42,813 bases of DNA from a virus, in IMG/VR virus record IMGVR_UViG_3300037961_004277, positions 1,217 to 44,029 of that record, one strand, 5' to 3'. Made by a program: the position numbers and the translations under genes. The notes under the pieces were generated by a model. It searched no databases and was not told where the DNA came from. It was given only the letters and a program-made list of their open reading frames with translations. Position 1 is the first letter of the stretch. Every line of letters begins with the position of its first letter. Of this stretch, positions 1,299-21,605 are shown in pieces.

Positions 1299-3785
1299 AT
1301 GTCCAATTATTATTATCCAGAGGGACCACTGGGACCAATCTGTGATGTAGTCGGGGATGATGCACCGAAGAAGAAAATTATATTTGATGAAGGTGATGGC
1401 AGAGAGTATACTTACGGACCCCTAGAGTTTCCTGATATGGAAGCGGTAATGCCTGGCGTTCCCGCTCTTACTGGTCGTAGGTGTAAGAAAAGAACACTTT
1501 CGGACGGAACTATTGAATATTATGATTGTGAAGATACATTTTTAAATCCTCTTCCAGAGAGTGATACTGGTCTTCCTAGTCAGTTTGATTACGATTGGAA
1601 AACTAACAGTCAATCTCCATGGGGTCTTGACGATGACTTTGAGGAACCTGATATTTCTGAAATTAGTTGTTCACCTTTTGATCCTGACCAGAATATTATT
1701 CCTGTAAGAGTTTATAATTCAGATGGAACTTTTGTAACTAGAGTACAAACAGAAAGATCTAGTCCAGTTACTTTTAACGTGACATCTGAAGATCAAACGT
1801 TTATAAACGACGCTACGATTACAGCAGAGTTTTCTACAGATCAACAGAACTTGGTGATCGGAGGAACTGGAGACGGCATCGTTCAACTTGAGTTAGACTG
1901 GGATGATAAACCAAGTATCTCTGGTCAAGCAATCGGTACGCTTACTGTTGCAGGAGCATCGATGAGTCAGGGTAATAAAACGAAAGGCACAAAGAGTGTA
2001 TCAGTACAAGTAACTGCAGGACAATCATATCCAATTGTTTTAAGTGGGAACTCTGGTACTTCTGGAAGCAGACTTGCAAGTCCACAGGTGATTGAATATG
2101 ATGATGATGTACCAGGATTTGATGTTAATGCCACATTGAGAATTGCTGATATCCTACCATTAGAACCAACCAGCAATGTTGCAGGTTATTGGAGTGACGA
2201 AGGAAACAAATATGCTGTATGGACTAACCCTGCTATCTGTACATTGCCACAAATCACACAACAGGTAACTTATCAAATTCCTATTCCTGAAACAGGAACG
2301 TATGGATTTGAGTTTGCTTGTGATGATAATGCTCAGATGTTTTTGAATGGTAGTAATGTACCATTCATGAATATCACTGGTGGTATCTTTGAGGGTGGAT
2401 CACTTAATGTACCATATACTTCTACAACAACTCTGAATGCAGGTACATTAGAATTAGTAGTAAAGTGTACAAACTCTGATGCTGGGTTTAACGATGGACA
2501 AGGAAATCCAACTGGACTTGCATATAGTTGGCAACGAAATCCTGGTGGTTGGTATATAAAAATCTGTCAAGGTGGTAATTGCATACCAGTAAATAACATT
2601 CCGTGGGTTGCATCAGGACCACATCCTGCTTGGTCTGACTTTATGAATCTCTATGCAGTATGGGTATCATCTCACTTAACTGAATCAGGATCTCCTAAAA
2701 CTGCAACTTGGAATATTCCTATCACTGATACTGGTAATTATCAATTGGATGTTCAGGCAGACAATCAAGCAGTCATAAGTTTTGATGGTGTTAGTCAAGG
2801 CACAGTTAATTCATTCACGACTACAACATCTTATTCACTAAATAATATTACAGCGGGTGGTCACACCCTTCAGGCAGTAGTAACTAATAACGTTGAGACA
2901 GTTGATAACTGGTCTAACAACCCAGCAGGTGTTGCATGGACCTTGACAAAATTAAATACTCCGTCTAACATAACTGCTAAGTTCAAAAATAATGGAGACT
3001 TACAAGTTCAAGGATCTGGTACTGGAACTATTCAATTGAACTTCTCTTGGGATGAAACTCCTGAATACACCAGTGCTAACGTTTCTGTTGCATTTGATTC
3101 AAATGGTAATCTAGTAGCAACTGGAACTGGATCTGCAACTGTTCAATTAGATTTTGAATGGAATGATAATCCTAATACCTATGGACAGGCATTAGGAACT
3201 GTTGCATACTCTTCATTGGGTGCATCATTTACACAAACTTTAGGTGCTAGAAGAGGAAATTCTTCTCAGTCTGTATCAGTTACAGCAGGAAACACATATA
3301 ATGTGAGCATCTCTAATAACCCATTTGGATTTACTCTTAAAGATAATGGGGGAAGACTTTGTTTTTATGATGGAGATGGTCAAGATTGTAATGCTTCATT
3401 GTTCATTGGCACTGTTACACAGGCACAAACTGAAGTTGCAGCAGACAATGCAGTTGAATCTTATTCGGTCGCAGGGTATACATTTACCACTGGATCATCG
3501 AATACTGGATCATCAAATGCGACAATCAATGTAACTGCAGGAACTACATATCCTGCTACCATTGTCAATAATCCTAATGGATTTAGTTTGAAGAATTCAA
3601 AGAGTAAAATTTGTTTTCAAGATAGTCTTGGAACTGACTGTAATGCTCAGATCACTATCGGAACTGTTAACAATAACAATCAAAATGCTATTGTTGCTTC
3701 TTCATTAGATTTAAGTTCAGATGGAACTGGAAATTTAATTTGGCACACCAGACTTGCTTCTGGATACGAATACACGGATGTTTAA
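1299..3785 (+). CDS. Large modular virion structural protein with repeated beta-sandwich units
   Basis: 828 residues, no exact family recognised. It is rich in Thr, Ser, Asn, Gly and Val. One module occurs near residues 175-250 and again near 590-690; it contains GTG...VQLxxxW(D/N)DxP, GQAxGT and SVxVTAGxxY. A final 55-residue unit with NNPxGFxLK and (L/I)CFxD...DCNA occurs twice near the C-terminus. Two copies of a PA14-like or carbohydrate-binding-like sandwich (residues ~295-395 and ~435-555) share YAVW, a (T/N)GxYxxxxxxDNxAxxxxxG core and AGxxxLxxxVxN. These features fit a tail or capsid fibre displayed on the virion. A late promoter precedes it and no clear Shine-Dalgarno is present, because the start abuts a terminator T run. 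The next gene starts within its stop codon. Confidence 0.7.
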   Translation: MSNYYYPEGPLGPICDVVGDDAPKKKIIFDEGDGREYTYGPLEFPDMEAVMPGVPALTGRRCKKRTLSDGTIEYYDCEDTFLNPLPESDTGLPSQFDYDWKTNSQSPWGLDDDFEEPDISEISCSPFDPDQNIIPVRVYNSDGTFVTRVQTERSSPVTFNVTSEDQTFINDATITAEFSTDQQNLVIGGTGDGIVQLELDWDDKPSISGQAIGTLTVAGASMSQGNKTKGTKSVSVQVTAGQSYPIVLSGNSGTSGSRLASPQVIEYDDDVPGFDVNATLRIADILPLEPTSNVAGYWSDEGNKYAVWTNPAICTLPQITQQVTYQIPIPETGTYGFEFACDDNAQMFLNGSNVPFMNITGGIFEGGSLNVPYTSTTTLNAGTLELVVKCTNSDAGFNDGQGNPTGLAYSWQRNPGGWYIKICQGGNCIPVNNIPWVASGPHPAWSDFMNLYAVWVSSHLTESGSPKTATWNIPITDTGNYQLDVQADNQAVISFDGVSQGTVNSFTTTTSYSLNNITAGGHTLQAVVTNNVETVDNWSNNPAGVAWTLTKLNTPSNITAKFKNNGDLQVQGSGTGTIQLNFSWDETPEYTSANVSVAFDSNGNLVATGTGSATVQLDFEWNDNPNTYGQALGTVAYSSLGASFTQTLGARRGNSSQSVSVTAGNTYNVSISNNPFGFTLKDNGGRLCFYDGDGQDCNASLFIGTVTQAQTEVAADNAVESYSVAGYTFTTGSSNTGSSNATINVTAGTTYPATIVNNPNGFSLKNSKSKICFQDSLGTDCNAQITIGTVNNNNQNAIVASSLDLSSDGTGNLIWHTRLASGYEYTDV

Positions 3786-11805: not shown

Positions 11806-11867
11806 CCTTAGATTCCCAGAAAGTCGCAAAAAAAATCGCGGCAAAAAATGGGTCTCTAAGGTTTTTT
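11806..11867 (+). terminator. Terminator between convergent gene blocks
   Basis: CCTTAGA (11806-11812) pairs with TCTAAGG (11855-11861) and inner CCCA pairs with TGGG; a run of six T follows. It separates the plus-strand gene 32 operon from the minus-strand gene 53. Confidence 0.7.
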
Positions 11868-12786
11868 AGTATCCGTAACCAGATCCACCAGATCCGCCAC
11901 TTTGAGGAGAAGGCGAAGGCGATGGTGAAGGTGAAGGAGTTGGAGAAGGTGTAGATGATGTAGATGTGCTGCTAACCGCACTACCACCACCATTAGAAGT
12001 AGTAGTTGAAGTTGTAGTGACTGTACCTGAAACTCCAACAGATCCGACAGTGGTAGGACCATCATCATATGTGATCGGACCACCGTTATTACCAGTATTA
12101 GTGATTAATCCAGTATTTTGGAAATTCTGTGAACCAATATTATTAAGGAAACGAGACGCGATACTAAGAGGCGTCTTTTTATTGCCTTGATCATCTAATT
12201 CAGAATGTGGTTCATATCCGACTAAATCTTCAAATTCTTCAATCATCATATCAAGGACTGCACCTGTAGGAACTAGAATTTGACGTTTTTGCTCATTTAC
12301 AGCATATTCATGCTCATAGTTGGTAATTGGATATCTACTCTCTTCGGCAGTTTTTGTTGTTCCGTCAGGTAAAGTGCAACGATAGTCTAGAGTTACTTGA
12401 ACACCTTCTTTAATGAATACAATGTCGTTATATAAAATCTCATTAGTTTCGTAATGATGCACATCATCTGGATTTGTGTATTTCTCATTTACATAATCAG
12501 ATAACGTATTTAAGTCTCTTGGCCACTGTTCGTAGAAATCAGTAATATCGTTAATTAAGAGAATAGTCCAATCTAAATGAGAATCTTGAAACAACTCATA
12601 TGCGATGGAAGCAGGAGTTTCGTTATCCTTAATAGAATGTGCCTCAAATAAGGTTACATACTTACTTAAGTCAGGTCTAGACTTTACCTTTCGGCATAAA
12701 TTCTTGCTAAGTCTGTATTTGAAGAGTTCGTTATCTGTAACTCCCTCACCAATGAATACGTTTGGTAATTTTGAAAAATATGACAT
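11866..12786 (-). CDS. 53: Baseplate wedge subunit gp53
   Basis: 306 residues. The first ~200 match T4 gp53 in layout: FKYRLSKNL, TPASIAYELFQDSHLDWTIL, NDITDFYEQWPRD and a C-terminal EQKRQILVP strand (T4 NEKLRQIKII). gp53 joins wedges around the hub during baseplate assembly. Beyond residue ~200 there is an added tail, ending in Thr/Ser/Gly-rich and Pro-Ser repeats (PSPSPSPSPSP) and SGGSGYGY, which T4 gp53 (196 residues) lacks. The tail is probably flexible and exposed. Minus strand, downstream of gene 48 with a two-base gap, sharing its late promoter. Confidence 0.88.
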   Translation of the reverse strand: MSYFSKLPNVFIGEGVTDNELFKYRLSKNLCRKVKSRPDLSKYVTLFEAHSIKDNETPASIAYELFQDSHLDWTILLINDITDFYEQWPRDLNTLSDYVNEKYTNPDDVHHYETNEILYNDIVFIKEGVQVTLDYRCTLPDGTTKTAEESRYPITNYEHEYAVNEQKRQILVPTGAVLDMMIEEFEDLVGYEPHSELDDQGNKKTPLSIASRFLNNIGSQNFQNTGLITNTGNNGGPITYDDGPTTVGSVGVSGTVTTTSTTTSNGGGSAVSSTSTSSTPSPTPSPSPSPSPSPQSGGSGGSGYGY

Positions 12787-15052: not shown

Positions 15053-15766
15053 ATGGCATTACCTAAATTAAATGTACCTAAGTACAAAGTGAAATTGCCG
15101 TCTGACGGTAAAACAATTGTTAACTTCAGACCTTTTCTTGTAAAAGAAGAGAAGTTGCTTCTGGTAGCAACTGAAACTGGTGATCAAGAGCAGTTGCTTG
15201 ACACTATCAAAGGTATCCTCAAAGAGTGTACTGATATTGTAGATGTTGAAAAACTTGCAACATTTGATATTGAATATTTGTTCTTACAAATTCGTACTAA
15301 GTCAGTTGGTGAATCTGTATCGGCAACAGTTGTCTGTCCCGATGATGGGGAGACTGAAGTAACAGTTTCAATCCCTCTTGACGAAATCAAGGTAGTTAAA
15401 GACAAGAAACATAAGAAAGAGATCAAACTTTCTGAAGATATGGCGGTCACATTTGACTATCCTAGACTCGATACATTTGTTAAGTTGAACTTTGGTGATG
15501 GTGGTCCAAGTGTAGATACTGTATTCACAATGGCAGCATCATGCATGGTGACTATTGCTACTGAAGAACAGGTATATGATTGTAATGATGCTACAGATGC
15601 TGAAAAGATTGAGTTCTTAGATAATCTGAATAGTAAGCAATTTGCACAGGTTCAAGAGTTCTTTGAAACTATGCCAAAATTGTCTCATACTGTCGAGGTT
15701 GTTAATCCTAAGACTAATGTGAAAAGTGAAGTTGTTCTAGAAGGACTGGCGAGTTTTTTCGCATAG
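15053..15766 (+). CDS. 26: Baseplate hub / assembly protein gp26 (T4_baseplate family)
   Basis: 237 residues. MALPKLNVPKYKVKLPSDGK and FRPFLVKEEKLLLVATETGD are the hallmark start of the T4 gp26 family. ATVVCPDDGE is an isolated Cys-containing strand. T4 gp26 and gp51 are needed for hub formation. Position directly before long tape-measure-like genes is where tail assembly chaperones normally sit. The gene ends SFFA-stop, and a TTTTTTC heptamer at 15754-15760 sits one codon before the stop in the correct phase for a -1 slip (see next entries). I infer two products: the 237-residue protein and a 300-residue extended form. Confidence 0.85.
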   Translation: MALPKLNVPKYKVKLPSDGKTIVNFRPFLVKEEKLLLVATETGDQEQLLDTIKGILKECTDIVDVEKLATFDIEYLFLQIRTKSVGESVSATVVCPDDGETEVTVSIPLDEIKVVKDKKHKKEIKLSEDMAVTFDYPRLDTFVKLNFGDGGPSVDTVFTMAASCMVTIATEEQVYDCNDATDAEKIEFLDNLNSKQFAQVQEFFETMPKLSHTVEVVNPKTNVKSEVVLEGLASFFA

Positions 15767-15804
15767 CCCTCCTGCACACAAACCTTCGGGCATATTATGA
15801 GGGC
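15754..15804 (+). promoter_or_regulatory. Programmed -1 frameshift signal in gene 26
   Basis: Slippery heptamer T TTT TTC at 15754-15760 is in exact X XXY YYZ phase with gene 26. After a five-base spacer, GCCCTC (15766-15771) can pair with GAGGGC (15799-15804); the loop contains a CC-TTCG-GG mini-hairpin at 15783-15790. The gene 26 stop is at 15764-15766. Confidence 0.7.
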
Positions 15805-15954
15805 AACTTTGCCTTAATGCATCATCATAAGTGGAATCCTGAGTACATTGATAATTTAATGCCTTGGGAGAAAGAGATTTATGTGAATCTATTAGTCAAT
15901 TTCCTCAAAGAAGAAGAAAACCGAATGAAGGAGCAACAGGCGAAGAGTGGCTAG
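15760..15954 (+). CDS. Frameshift extension of gp26 (gp51-like assembly segment)
   Basis: In the -1 frame the extension is 64 residues, starting RIALLHTNLRAYYEGN and including EYIDNLMPWEKEIYVNLLV and a charged helix FLKEEENRMKEQQ. It has no ATG at its head; the first internal ATG is at 15817 and would give only 45 residues. The coding quality, the slippery site at the junction and the overlap of its stop with the next start support translation as a fusion to gp26. The arrangement parallels the G/GT tail assembly chaperones of lambda. It may equal T4 gp51 functionally, but I cannot confirm homology. Confidence 0.65.
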   Translation, partial: RIALLHTNLRAYYEGNFALMHHHKWNPEYIDNLMPWEKEIYVNLLVNFLKEEENRMKEQQAKSG

Positions 15955-18910
15955 CACTAAAATACAACCATTCAAGTTTTACAATCCAGGTACTTCATCC
16001 ATAAAGTCACCTGTTGTTCTTGCTGCCAGAAAAAATGTATTGGCAACAAATAGATTAGGTAAAACTGTTGAGGGTATTGGGTCGCTAGTAAGTGATATTG
16101 AGACAATCAATATCAAGATGATAAAGAATGAGAAGTTAAGAGAAAGGGCAGAAAGACAAAGAGCACAGAGACAAAGAGATCAGGCAGCAGAAGATGCTGC
16201 AGAAAGAAGTGCAATCAAGAAAGCAGGTCAGGGAAGTCTTGGTAGTAAGTTAAAAAGACAAACAAAAAAAGGACTTAAGGGTGGTTTTTCATGGATTGAA
16301 AAATTCTTAGGACCTGTAGGTAATTTTTTACTGCAACTTGGTGCTTTCTTTGTTACCACTGAGGTAATGAAGTGGATTGGTGATGAACAGAACAGAGAAA
16401 AGTTAGCAACATTTTTAGACAAGGCATTATTTGTCTTTGATAAGTTATTTTCATGGGCATCCACACTAACGAACAAAGTCTTAGATGGATGGTCGGCATT
16501 ATTTGCAGAAGATGGAGACTTCGGTAGTAGACTGAGAGGTCTCGGTGATATGATGCTTGGAATTATCGGGTTGAAATACCTGATGAATCCATTCAGTTTA
16601 ATTACTGATATTTTAGGTCTGCTAGACATGGCAGACAGTATTCCAGATCCTGACGGAAGGAATAAGAAACCTAAAGGTGACAAACCACCAACACCAGATA
16701 AAAAACCAAAAGGAAACAGATTTACTCGATTCCTTAATAGTCAAGTTGAGAATATTAAGAAACCTCTTAGGAGTTTTCTTGGTGTTAAGACTCTGAATCC
16801 ATTTGGTGATAACAGAAATAATTACAGCAAATATATTGATGAACTTACAGGCAATAAACCTGGTCCGTTAGGTAATCTTGTAGATAATAGTGCCACACAA
16901 ATCAAAAGACTTCAAAATTTTGGTTCAGGTCTCATTGATAGTATGTCAACTGAGGCGGATAAGGTACTAAAATCTGAGACTACAAAAAAATTATTCCAAA
17001 ACCTAGATCCAAAAAATCTTTGGAACTCTACAGTCGATAAATCGCTTCAACTTGCTGATGCTATTGGTTTTGATGAAGCTAAAAGAACTAGTGTTGTAGA
17101 AACAGGACAAAAATTATTAGATGATGCTGTAGTTCTTGGATCAGAAGTATTAGATAAAGCAAAAAAACAAGGTGAGGCGATAACAAAAGGTGTATTTGGT
17201 TTCCTTAATACTTCATGGAAAAACCTTACCTTCCAAGAGGGAACTACATTTAGAGCTGGTGCTGAAATTACAGGTAGAAATTTAACCTTCCAAGAGGGTT
17301 CTACCTTCAGAAAAGCAGCAGATTCTGCTATAAAATTTGCTTCAGAAAAAGCAAATGCAATTCGTAATAGTATCGATTCCCAGTTTGCCAAGTTTGGCAA
17401 CTTGGTTAGTAATATAGGTGAAGCTGGTAAAACCTTCTTAATAGAGAGAATGGTTCAACCTTTAATGGGAAAACTGGAAAAACCATTAAATTTTATTAAA
17501 GGTCTTGGAACAAAGTTAGGTGATGCATTATTAAAAGTCCCTTATGTAGGGAAACTAGTTGAAGCACTCAAGGGTAAAGGTATCAAGAGTCTTGGGGACT
17601 TTGGTTCAAAGACCATGAAATTTATCGGCGCTAATGCTTGGCCGATTATTGGTGGTTTATTTGGTCTTATTTCCTCCTATGACAGATTAACTAGTAATGA
17701 TCCTACTGGTGCAGTATTTGATTTTGCTTCTGCTTTATTTGACTTATCAGTTATTGGTGGTTTTGCACCAGGTGGTGGAATTTCATTAGGTATTGATTTA
17801 TTCATGCTTGCTAGAGATCTAGCAGGTATGATGTTCGATGATTTTGATCCTAGAGAACCTGAAGATGCACTAATTGAAAAATTTGGCATGAAATTTCTTC
17901 AAGATGGATTGAGGTCTGTTGGTAATGCATTACCTTCCTTTGGTGAAATTGGCAACTTACTTGGACAAGCAGAGCAGATTGACAAGGGAGATGTAATCAG
18001 TGACGAAGCCCTTTCCATGGTGGATCAATACTCCATTGGTGGTGGTGTTGAACCTCAAGAGATGTTCCTTGGTGGTATTGTAAAAGGTATTAGTAGAGCA
18101 GTTAGTGGTGTTGTAAAAGGTGTTAGTAAAGCAGTTAGCAGTGTAGGTAACTTTGTTGGTGGCATTGTAAACAATCCGATTGTTAAAACAGCAGCAATGT
18201 TTATTCCTGGTGCTGCACCTATTGTAGGTGGCATTAGTGCTATATCATCTCTCGCATCGGGTAATCCGATGGGTGCAGTTATGGCAGGACTGAACCATTT
18301 TGCACCTGGCATGATGGCAGGTATTGATAATGTATTAGGTAAAGTCACTGGATTCCTTGATAGTCCTATTGGTCAGATAGGACAGAACTTAATGACAGGC
18401 AACATCTTGGGTGCTGCCGATATAGGTCTAGGCATGATTGGTGGACCTATTGGTTCATTAGGTCAAAAGATCTTAGGTGGTGATTTTGGTGGTGCTATCA
18501 CGAGTGGACTAGGGATGATTAGTCCTGATTTAGGAAGTTTAGCAGAAAGTGTACTCAAGGGTGGATTTAATCCAGCATCAATGATTGCTGGTGCTGCTGA
18601 TCACTTTGGACTTGGTGGTATTCTTGATGCTGTTACTGGTATCAGTAGTGGAGATCCTAGTAAAGCAATCGAAATGATTGGTTCTGAGTTGGGTATTGAT
18701 AAAAAAGTCTTAGGTGTAGTTGATAATGTTGCAACTAAGGCATTGAGTTCTGATGGAATCTCAGCAAAATATGCTATGAAGCAAGCATTAGAGTTTGTTC
18801 CTATCCCTCTTATTATCGAAAAGATCGAACCTATTCTTCAGGCAGTACCTATAAATATAAACAGAACAAAAGTAGTAAAAGCAGTAGAAACTACACTGAG
18901 CAAGATTTAA
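15947..18910 (+). CDS. Tape-measure / baseplate hub-like structural protein, paralogue 1
   Basis: 987 residues from GTG 15947, overlapping the frameshift ORF by eight bases. Residues ~5-75 and ~100-225 resemble the N-terminus of the next gene product (KIQPFKFYNPG / KINFYKFVSP, NRLGKTVEG / NNLGKTLNS, GLKYLMNPFSLITDI / GIRWLSNPMNLVNDF). A basic coiled segment (RERAERQRAQRQRDQ) follows the first block. NLTFQEG(T/S)TFR is repeated near residues 425 and 445. The C-terminal ~270 residues are Gly-rich hydrophobic helices with repeated GxxxGxx(L/I)G. These traits and position after gene 26 fit a tape-measure or gp29-like hub protein. Exact T4 counterpart unproven. Confidence 0.65.
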   Translation: MASTKIQPFKFYNPGTSSIKSPVVLAARKNVLATNRLGKTVEGIGSLVSDIETINIKMIKNEKLRERAERQRAQRQRDQAAEDAAERSAIKKAGQGSLGSKLKRQTKKGLKGGFSWIEKFLGPVGNFLLQLGAFFVTTEVMKWIGDEQNREKLATFLDKALFVFDKLFSWASTLTNKVLDGWSALFAEDGDFGSRLRGLGDMMLGIIGLKYLMNPFSLITDILGLLDMADSIPDPDGRNKKPKGDKPPTPDKKPKGNRFTRFLNSQVENIKKPLRSFLGVKTLNPFGDNRNNYSKYIDELTGNKPGPLGNLVDNSATQIKRLQNFGSGLIDSMSTEADKVLKSETTKKLFQNLDPKNLWNSTVDKSLQLADAIGFDEAKRTSVVETGQKLLDDAVVLGSEVLDKAKKQGEAITKGVFGFLNTSWKNLTFQEGTTFRAGAEITGRNLTFQEGSTFRKAADSAIKFASEKANAIRNSIDSQFAKFGNLVSNIGEAGKTFLIERMVQPLMGKLEKPLNFIKGLGTKLGDALLKVPYVGKLVEALKGKGIKSLGDFGSKTMKFIGANAWPIIGGLFGLISSYDRLTSNDPTGAVFDFASALFDLSVIGGFAPGGGISLGIDLFMLARDLAGMMFDDFDPREPEDALIEKFGMKFLQDGLRSVGNALPSFGEIGNLLGQAEQIDKGDVISDEALSMVDQYSIGGGVEPQEMFLGGIVKGISRAVSGVVKGVSKAVSSVGNFVGGIVNNPIVKTAAMFIPGAAPIVGGISAISSLASGNPMGAVMAGLNHFAPGMMAGIDNVLGKVTGFLDSPIGQIGQNLMTGNILGAADIGLGMIGGPIGSLGQKILGGDFGGAITSGLGMISPDLGSLAESVLKGGFNPASMIAGAADHFGLGGILDAVTGISSGDPSKAIEMIGSELGIDKKVLGVVDNVATKALSSDGISAKYAMKQALEFVPIPLIIEKIEPILQAVPININRTKVVKAVETTLSKI

Positions 18911-18914
18911 TTAA

Positions 18915-21605
18915 ATGGCAACTGTACAAAAAGGCGCTAAAATCAATTTTTATAAGTTCGTTTCACCTGCTGCAGCGACAAGTACGAAAGTGTCTGGAGA
19001 AAGTCAGGCAGTAGTGCAGTCTATCAATGCGAATGTAGAAGCAACAAATAATTTAGGTAAGACTCTTAATTCTCTTGCGAAGGTAGTTGCAGATATTAAG
19101 AAGGTACAGTTAGCACAACTGACCTTAGCAGAAAAAAATAGGATAAAATTTCAACCAAAGTATAATAAACCTCAAAGCAGTCTCGGTAGCAGTTTTATTA
19201 CTGCAATGAAGAAGGGGAGAACTCCTAGTTTCTTAGAAGGTCTGCTGAATATGTTGGGCGCTCTTTTAAAGATCGCCATTATTACTCCAGCATTAGAATG
19301 GTTATCTAAGAAAGAAAATCAAAAGAAAGTCAAGACTATTGTTGAGACACTGGTCACGATTGCAAAGTTTATATATGATGTTGCTAAGTTTGGTGTAGTC
19401 AATACTATTGAAGGACTTTATAAATTACTATCTGATGAGACTAATTGGTGGGAAAAACTTGGTGGATTATTACAGGCCGCGGCAGGACTAGGAACTTTAT
19501 TACTTGGAATTCGTTGGTTAAGCAACCCAATGAATCTTGTTAATGACTTTGGTAATGTTCTAAAGTTCTTAAGAGCTAACTTAATAGCAAGTAAAACAAA
19601 ATTAGGAAAGAGATTTGGTAAAAGAGGTCTCGCCAGTATATTAATAACAGGTACATCTGTTGCTTTGATGACTACTGGTAATCGTGTTGGAGATGATGAT
19701 CCACCACCGAAAGAAGAAACTAATAATAATCCTCCACCCAAGGAAGAAAAATCATCTACTCCTCTGAGTGATTTCTTTGGTGGTCTAAGAAATATGTTCT
19801 CATTCGGTAGGAAACCCGAAGAGAAAGCAGCAGGTGGTTGGATCTCTGGTCCTCAGTCTGGTTATCCTGTATCACTTAATGGTGGTAAAAGTACAGCATT
19901 CATTGGTCATGGTACTGAATATGTTGCTAGAAAGGCAAATGGTGGAGCATTTGTTGTTCCTTTTGATACTCCTGCAACTAGGAGAATGCCTCACCTCACT
20001 AATAAAAGAATTGCTGAAGCAAAGTCTGGAGGATTTGGATTACCTGGTTTTTCTGCGGGAGGAACTTTACCTGCAGGCAAGGTGCTTTCTCAAAAAAGTG
20101 CCTTTGATCATGTACACAAGTTAGCAAAAAAAGCAGGCGGAGCAAAGTTCCCTCAAATTGTTGCTGCTCAAGCAATGCATGAAACAGGATATTTGAATCC
20201 TAATCTTCCAAGTGTTTATAATAGTACAACTAGAACTAATGCTTTTGGTCAAACTGGTGATAGAGGATTTGGTACTATTCCTAGAAGTGGATTCTCTGAG
20301 GGTTGGACAAAATACGATAATTTATTCAGTGCAGTAAAAGATAATATTAAATTATGGCATGATGTAGGAAATCACCCTGAAAACTATAATGCTTTTGGTA
20401 ATCCTTTGGATGGTATTGCTGCGGTAGCAAAGGCATACTCTCCTAATGCAGATCCCGCCAATATTAGATTGGGATATACTACTGACGGGTATAGTAAGGG
20501 AATGGTTAGAGCATTGAAAGTTGGTGGATTTGATCCTACTAACATGAAATCTAGTCCGCTAACATCTAGCAATAATAGTAGTGGAAGCAGACCTCAACCA
20601 AAAGGTAATTTCTTTACAAATAACTTCAACAGGTTGAAGAACTTCCTTGGATTTGGTGATGATTCACAAGAGAAACCAGATAAAAGTTCAACCAGTAATA
20701 AATCAGGAACAATCAAACCTGCATCACACCCTGAGACAGGTTCTGGATTTACTGTTGCAGGAACAAAGGATCAAAGCAATAGACCTATTGTATTGTCAGA
20801 ACCAGCAGCAGAACAATTTGCTGCTGCAATGAAAGCTTCTGGTATGGACTTAGCATCATTTGTTGCAAGTTCTGGTAGAAGTAGAGCAAAAAATGAATCT
20901 ATTGGTGGGCATCCAGAATCACATCACTTATATGGTGAAGCACTTGATATTAATGGTGAAGGATATCAGTGGTTGAAAGCAAATGGCAGACAATATGGTT
21001 GGCAATATGTTTATAACCATAATGCTGAAAGTGCTCACTTTAAGTATGTTGGTCCTAAAGCAGGATCTACACCAATCTTAGCAGCTCCAAACAGCACTTA
21101 TGCTGGTGGTAACAGTCTTAACGGACACGTTGGTGAAGGTTCAAGAGAGGGTAGTCGTGCAGAAGAAGAGGCAAAGAAAAGAGAAAGATCGGCTTTTGCT
21201 AAAGCATTTGCAGGTAATTTCACTGCTTCCTCATCTAAATCTATTGAAGAAAGAATGGGTATGGGTCAACAGGGCACAATGTATCAGGGCGGTGCTAGTA
21301 ACTTTAGAAAAACAAAAGAAGAACGTGCTTTGATGGAACAAACCAAGAAAAGAAATGCTGCTCGTGCTGACATAAATGATAGGAGTCAAAGCATGATTCA
21401 AAGTGTGATGGCAGCGGTCGAAACGTCTAACTCTGGTAATCGAATGGCAATTGCTCAAGCACAGCAGGCAGTAATGCAGATGATGGCAGCTAGTCAAGCT
21501 AGTGGTCAGACAGTATCTGCTGGTGGAGGTGGTGGTGCTGTTGCTAAGACAACTGCTGCCATGCTTGGATCTTCAATGAACGCATTCAGTAAAATCTTCA
21601 GATGA
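18915..21605 (+). CDS. Tape-measure/hub paralogue 2 with glucosaminidase-like and M15 peptidase domains
   Basis: 896 residues. Residues 1-225 are paralogous to the preceding protein. Residues ~395-540 resemble FlgJ/glucosaminidase-type hydrolases: IVAAQAMHETGY with candidate catalytic E423, then NAFGQTGDRGF and FSAVKDNIKLWHD. Residues ~610-715 are a complete M15/VanY-type zinc peptidase: SHHLYGEALD (669-678) gives ligands H671 and D678, and ESAHFKY gives H708. The protein should therefore cut both glycan and peptide bonds of peptidoglycan during injection. The C-terminus is a coil rich in Met, Ala and Gln, ending in a Gly run. gp5 in this genome lacks a lysozyme domain, which makes this the likely tail lysin. 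It overlaps gene 27 by four bases. Confidence 0.75.
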   Translation: MATVQKGAKINFYKFVSPAAATSTKVSGESQAVVQSINANVEATNNLGKTLNSLAKVVADIKKVQLAQLTLAEKNRIKFQPKYNKPQSSLGSSFITAMKKGRTPSFLEGLLNMLGALLKIAIITPALEWLSKKENQKKVKTIVETLVTIAKFIYDVAKFGVVNTIEGLYKLLSDETNWWEKLGGLLQAAAGLGTLLLGIRWLSNPMNLVNDFGNVLKFLRANLIASKTKLGKRFGKRGLASILITGTSVALMTTGNRVGDDDPPPKEETNNNPPPKEEKSSTPLSDFFGGLRNMFSFGRKPEEKAAGGWISGPQSGYPVSLNGGKSTAFIGHGTEYVARKANGGAFVVPFDTPATRRMPHLTNKRIAEAKSGGFGLPGFSAGGTLPAGKVLSQKSAFDHVHKLAKKAGGAKFPQIVAAQAMHETGYLNPNLPSVYNSTTRTNAFGQTGDRGFGTIPRSGFSEGWTKYDNLFSAVKDNIKLWHDVGNHPENYNAFGNPLDGIAAVAKAYSPNADPANIRLGYTTDGYSKGMVRALKVGGFDPTNMKSSPLTSSNNSSGSRPQPKGNFFTNNFNRLKNFLGFGDDSQEKPDKSSTSNKSGTIKPASHPETGSGFTVAGTKDQSNRPIVLSEPAAEQFAAAMKASGMDLASFVASSGRSRAKNESIGGHPESHHLYGEALDINGEGYQWLKANGRQYGWQYVYNHNAESAHFKYVGPKAGSTPILAAPNSTYAGGNSLNGHVGEGSREGSRAEEEAKKRERSAFAKAFAGNFTASSSKSIEERMGMGQQGTMYQGGASNFRKTKEERALMEQTKKRNAARADINDRSQSMIQSVMAAVETSNSGNRMAIAQAQQAVMQMMAASQASGQTVSAGGGGGAVAKTTAAMLGSSMNAFSKIFR

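Follow-up and report, generated by a model that had tools for sequence, protein, structure and literature searches.

The −1 frameshift of tail assembly chaperones was reportedly found to be conserved by Xu, Hendrix and Duda in 2004. In phage lambda, one gene near the tape-measure gene gives rise to a short chaperone, gpG, and a C-terminally extended one, gpGT, through a −1 slip near the 3′ end at the slip site G GGA AAG. The gp26 family described below is likened to this pair by arrangement, not by sequence: its predicted slip site is T TTT TTC instead of G GGA AAG, the stop codon lies 0–1 codons past the site in most members, and a Shine-Dalgarno-like element is found on the 5′ side.

Frameshifting of the G/GT type is a textbook device, of which the gp26-51 protein considered here is a well-supported instance, and it has been described as widely conserved among long-tailed phages "except T4" (PMC5009743). 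As cited in two later papers, T4-like tail assembly chaperones were identified by Vladimirov, Gautam and Davidson (2022; Virology 566:9–15); one of these papers attributes to that study the poly-T slip signals in T4-like short forms (PMC12846349), and the other the arrangement of a short plus a fused gene (PMC10885494). A tail-chaperone frameshift at GTTTTT has also been described in Vandenendeviridae and Andersonviridae, where it shares with the present case a conserved −1 shift on a T-rich stretch towards the end of the short form, as well as an extension that records either list as a gene of its own or leave intergenic; these are different phage families, and the likeness drawn is one of arrangement (PMC12846349).

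The window analyzed here, a stretch of 42,813 nt from a 44 kb IMG/VR virus record, has its closest relatives among Kyanoviridae cyanophages such as S-SM1. With a probability of about 0.93, its gene 26 and the −1 frame that follows would encode the two tail assembly chaperones of a T4-like marine cyanophage, TAC-N (gp26) and TAC-NC (gp26-51), by means of −1 frameshifting, forming the T4-superfamily version of lambda G/GT.

Gene 26 and the frame behind it

The plus-strand gene 26 (positions 15053–15766) encodes a protein of 237 aa belonging to the T4_baseplate family (PF12322, 236 bits; phrog_150, 278 bits), which is the proposed short form. Its 3′ end reads GAA GGA CTG GCG AGT TTT TTC GCA TAG. 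As the initial annotation had noted, the heptamer T TTT TTC (15754–15760) stands in the X XXY YYZ phase of the gene, one codon ahead of the TAG stop (15764–15766), and opens onto a −1 frame without a start codon at its head. This frame (15763–15954, plus strand) runs for 63 codons counted from 15763 until the TAG at 15952–15954, and its first ATG, GTG or TTG occurs only at 15817. The extension matches phrog_634 with 100 bits, a family annotated as "baseplate hub assembly catalyst" (gp51), and a search of the extension alone against Pfam found no family. When the two parts are joined, the 300-aa protein matches phrog_150 up to position 277 of 282, and the phrog_634 match spans the junction.

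Across the 51 open reading frames of the window (14,390 codons), and apart from a single AAATTTA site, this is the only in-phase X XXY YYZ heptamer which lies at most 20 codons from a stop and opens a −1 frame reaching at least 30 codons beyond its gene. The AAATTTA near 3733, before the stop of the gene at 1299–3785, was considered as a second frameshift and rejected; the −1 frame there is just the following gene, joined by an ordinary TAATG overlap, and the site is probably a coincidence.

The surrounding genes belong to the tail. A tail tube gene (phrog_45) precedes gene 26, and two long tail genes follow on the plus strand, with tape-measure candidates among them. The first (15947–18910; 987 aa, phrog_790), a candidate tape-measure or tail protein, begins at a GTG (15947) and shares its first 8 nt with the end of the extension; the second (18915–21605; 896 aa, phrog_1200) has a match to M15 peptidases and a weak one to glucosaminidases. 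The two products resemble each other at their N-termini, as seen in cross-matches between phrog_790 and phrog_1200, and PHROGs labels both as "endolysin," though one may be the tape measure. Elsewhere in the window, a 306-aa open reading frame on the minus strand (11866–12786) ends in a long low-complexity C-terminal tail of Thr, Ser, Pro and Gly.

The structures of gp26 and of the extension were modelled separately, with pLDDT values of 86 and 87, respectively. The extension is predicted to fold into a helical hairpin, and the gp26 model matches predicted viral baseplate hub proteins. Neither model had a significant match among solved structures: the HK97 chaperone 2ob9 appeared among the gp26 matches at a non-significant level (E 2.2, probability 0.41), the extension model matched nothing in the PDB, and the gp26 profile likewise found no match among PDB sequences.

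Conservation and selection across the gp26 family

Close to 300 loci were collected from IMG/VR and from named phages, yielding 289 complete gp26-family open reading frames. The initial annotation had proposed examining the conservation of TTTTTTC in cyanophage gene 26, and an in-phase run of six T (T6) is present in 283 of the 289. All of these have an open −1 frame after the slip site, extending 58–78 codons from it. The last letter of the heptamer is C in 247 cases, T in 35 and G in one, and the gp26 stop follows within 0–8 codons (0–1 in 270 of the 283, exactly one in 243). Carriers of T6 include cyanophage isolates, phages of Methylophilales, Sinorhizobium, Stenotrophomonas, Vibrio, Aeromonas and Cronobacter, and metagenomic contigs. 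The six open reading frames which do not combine T6 with an open frame are those of T4, Mokit, K364, 207E48.1, Cygsa01 and L295; Mokit is a T4-like phage carrying both paralogs, and L295 ends early. Single assemblies often contain homopolymer miscalls, and the split could in principle be a sequencing or assembly error in a true single gene with one more T, but the same split recurs in 283 open reading frames from independent isolates and metagenomes, and two family profiles found no collected locus with both parts in one open reading frame, which makes such an error vanishingly improbable.

The two phenylalanines at the site are conserved as protein even in T4, and codon choice was therefore tested. 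Among 136 distinct representatives, which were picked for carrying T6 (only 6 of the 289 open reading frames are without it), all 136 have TTT at the first Phe, preceded by a codon whose last base is T, against 52.6 expected from synonymous usage given the protein. At the second Phe, 125 of the 136 use TTC, although TTT makes up 68% of Phe codons elsewhere (binomial P 2e-49; P values here are nominal, all sequences being related by descent). Other Phe-Phe pairs in the same genes are written TTTTTT in only 3 of 154 cases. These patterns also bear on transcriptional slippage, whereby a U added on the T run would place the same downstream frame behind gp26 and yield the same fusion protein. The homopolymer run itself is compatible with such a mechanism. 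Six T are nevertheless short for slippage by RNA polymerase. Codon choice closes the run with C in nearly every case, and the run keeps a constant T TTT TTC phase, in keeping with slippage by tandem tRNAs; the selected Shine-Dalgarno-like element discussed below would act on ribosomes. Slippage of the polymerase is thus highly unlikely as the source of the longer product.

The −1 frame is free of stops in all 121 representatives compared, whereas the other two frames average about five stops each. Its overall pN/pS of 0.19 indicates purifying selection, and the value is 0.28 over the first 18 codons of the extension, upstream of 15817, where the window has its first possible start codon. This selection contradicts independent initiation at 15817 only, the outcome named beforehand as refuting the frameshift.

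More generally, the extension could be a small protein of its own, gp51, translated from an internal start (ATG 15817 in the window). In the records of P-SSM2 and S-SM1, gp51 has a CDS of its own, as it does in the GenBank annotation of many cyanophages. Some non-cyanophage relatives also have a TAATG or TGATG overlap which could permit reinitiation, and Ackermannviridae-like phages and Cygsa01 have kept the overlap without T6. Against a separate gene, no start codon is conserved in the extension: the first ATG lies anywhere from codon 3 to codon 35 among relatives, and in the window the first 18 codons contain no ATG, GTG or TTG yet are conserved as protein. The separate-gene reading also leaves the invariant in-phase T6 unexplained, and in T4 gp51 the extension is fused to a gp26-like domain. 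An independently initiated gp51 therefore has very little probability compared with translation by frameshifting. In three further records, those of ACG-2014d, Cronobacter S13 and Aeromonas AsFcp_2, the extension falls in an unannotated gap of about 160–190 nt (L181 3215–3401; L175 3212–3374; L172 3242–3407, respectively).

A Shine-Dalgarno-like element upstream of the slip site

In E. coli dnaX, a homopolymeric X XXY YYZ site has a Shine-Dalgarno-like sequence about 10 nt upstream and a stem on its 3′ side. A similar element, GAGGG in most relatives or GAAGG(A), precedes the gp26 slip site by approximately 9 nt. Across the 136 representatives, predicted pairing with the anti-Shine-Dalgarno sequence peaks at this element, with a mean of about −6.7 kcal/mol as opposed to about −3 to +1 kcal/mol elsewhere in the preceding 90 nt. 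The Glu codon within the element is GAG in 77 of 109 cases, compared to 18 of 64 at other Glu-Gly sites (nominal P = 6e-8). The window itself has GAA at this position, yet the pairing still reaches −6.8 kcal/mol; its GAAGGA (15740–15745, plus strand), ending 8–9 nt before the slip site, is the candidate 5′ stimulator on the grounds of anti-Shine-Dalgarno pairing and codon choice.

The initial annotation had instead pointed to a six-pair stem on the 3′ side. The complementary segments GCCCTC (15766–15771) and GAGGGC (15799–15804) are indeed present five bases past the heptamer, but they do not form the predicted minimum-energy pairing and they are not conserved. All six pairs occur in 3 of 134 representatives, the mean being 2.85 of 6 against 2.73 after shuffling, and a role of the stem as stimulator was rejected. 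Downstream of the slip site, folding is little stronger than in the rest of the gene. The Shine-Dalgarno-like element, which would stimulate slipping, is better supported in this role than the 3′ stem. By analogy, the gp26 element corresponds to the 5′ half of the dnaX signal; dnaX differs in having a 3′ stem, none being conserved in the gp26 family, and in that its frameshift yields a shorter product, in contrast to the longer product predicted here.

Conservation, coding selection, selection on the slip-site codons and homology to T4 gp26 and gp51 are shown by the sequences, and the occurrence and rate of slippage are inferred. Most ribosomes would terminate at the TAG at 15764 and release gp26 (TAC-N, 237 aa). 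A minority would be held by the GAAGGA some 9 nt upstream and slip back by one base on T TTT TTC, with both tRNA-Phe re-pairing with TTT TTT, and would then add 63 further residues up to 15954 to give gp26-51 (TAC-NC, 300 aa). The chaperone roles of the two forms are suggested by lambda gpG and gpGT (reviewed in PMC5009743): the N part may coat or escort the tape-measure protein, the C part may recruit the tail tube subunit, and neither form would be expected to stay in the virion.

T4 gp51 and the probable replacement of the slip site

T4 gp26 aligns over its whole length with the short form (hhalign E 7e-17). The N-terminal part of T4 gp51 also aligns with the short form (E 1.4e-5), while its residues 208–243 align with the extension (E 4.5e-5), and the protein matches both phrog_150 and phrog_634. 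T4 gp51 therefore corresponds to the long form contained in one open reading frame. The T4 proteins thus belong to the same family, with gp26 as the short form and gp51 as a gp26-like domain joined to the same C-terminal one; they differ in being encoded by two separate genes, as opposed to the one gene with a predicted frameshift in the window phage. The slip site is absent from T4 gene 26, which reads TTC TTT. The earlier remark that T4 is not a classic example agrees with this separate paralogous gene 51 and missing slip site.

In a tree of 50 sequences, T4 gp26 groups with slip-site-keeping T4-like phages of Vibrio, Aeromonas and Cronobacter (SH-aLRT 99), the place of gp51 itself being unsure due to long branches. 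Given this grouping with phages which keep the site, the frameshift was most likely replaced in T4, by a duplicated and fused gene. Another arrangement is found in the Vibrio phages K364 and 207E48.1 and the Pseudomonas phage Cygsa01, which have no T6; their extension still lies in the −1 frame and begins at a TAATG overlap. This points to a possible switch from frameshifting to reinitiation; an Ackermannviridae-like query found no further contigs. The Shine-Dalgarno-like element, the preference for TTC and this third arrangement are possibly new.

The proposal of a programmed −1 frameshift connecting gp26 and gp51 to the G/GT chaperone logic is supported by conservation, codon-level selection and T4 gp51 homology. 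In many cyanophage records, gp26 and "gp51" are listed as separate baseplate genes, or the second is left unannotated; the evidence argues that both belong to one tail chaperone made by frameshifting, as its short and its long form. This reading explains how T4 gp26 and gp51 are related, and the codon-level signature of T TTT TTC plus an upstream GAGGG is amenable to a reporter test. The odds appear about even that the T4-like superfamily reaches the same chaperone pair by three routes: ancestral −1 slippage on T TTT TTC with upstream Shine-Dalgarno-like help, a stop 0–1 codons away and no conserved 3′ structure; reinitiation at an overlapping start, in an Ackermannviridae-like clade from which the slip site was lost; and, in T4 and its closest relatives, gene duplication in which one copy is fused. 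If true, this would clearly document the replacement of a recoding signal.
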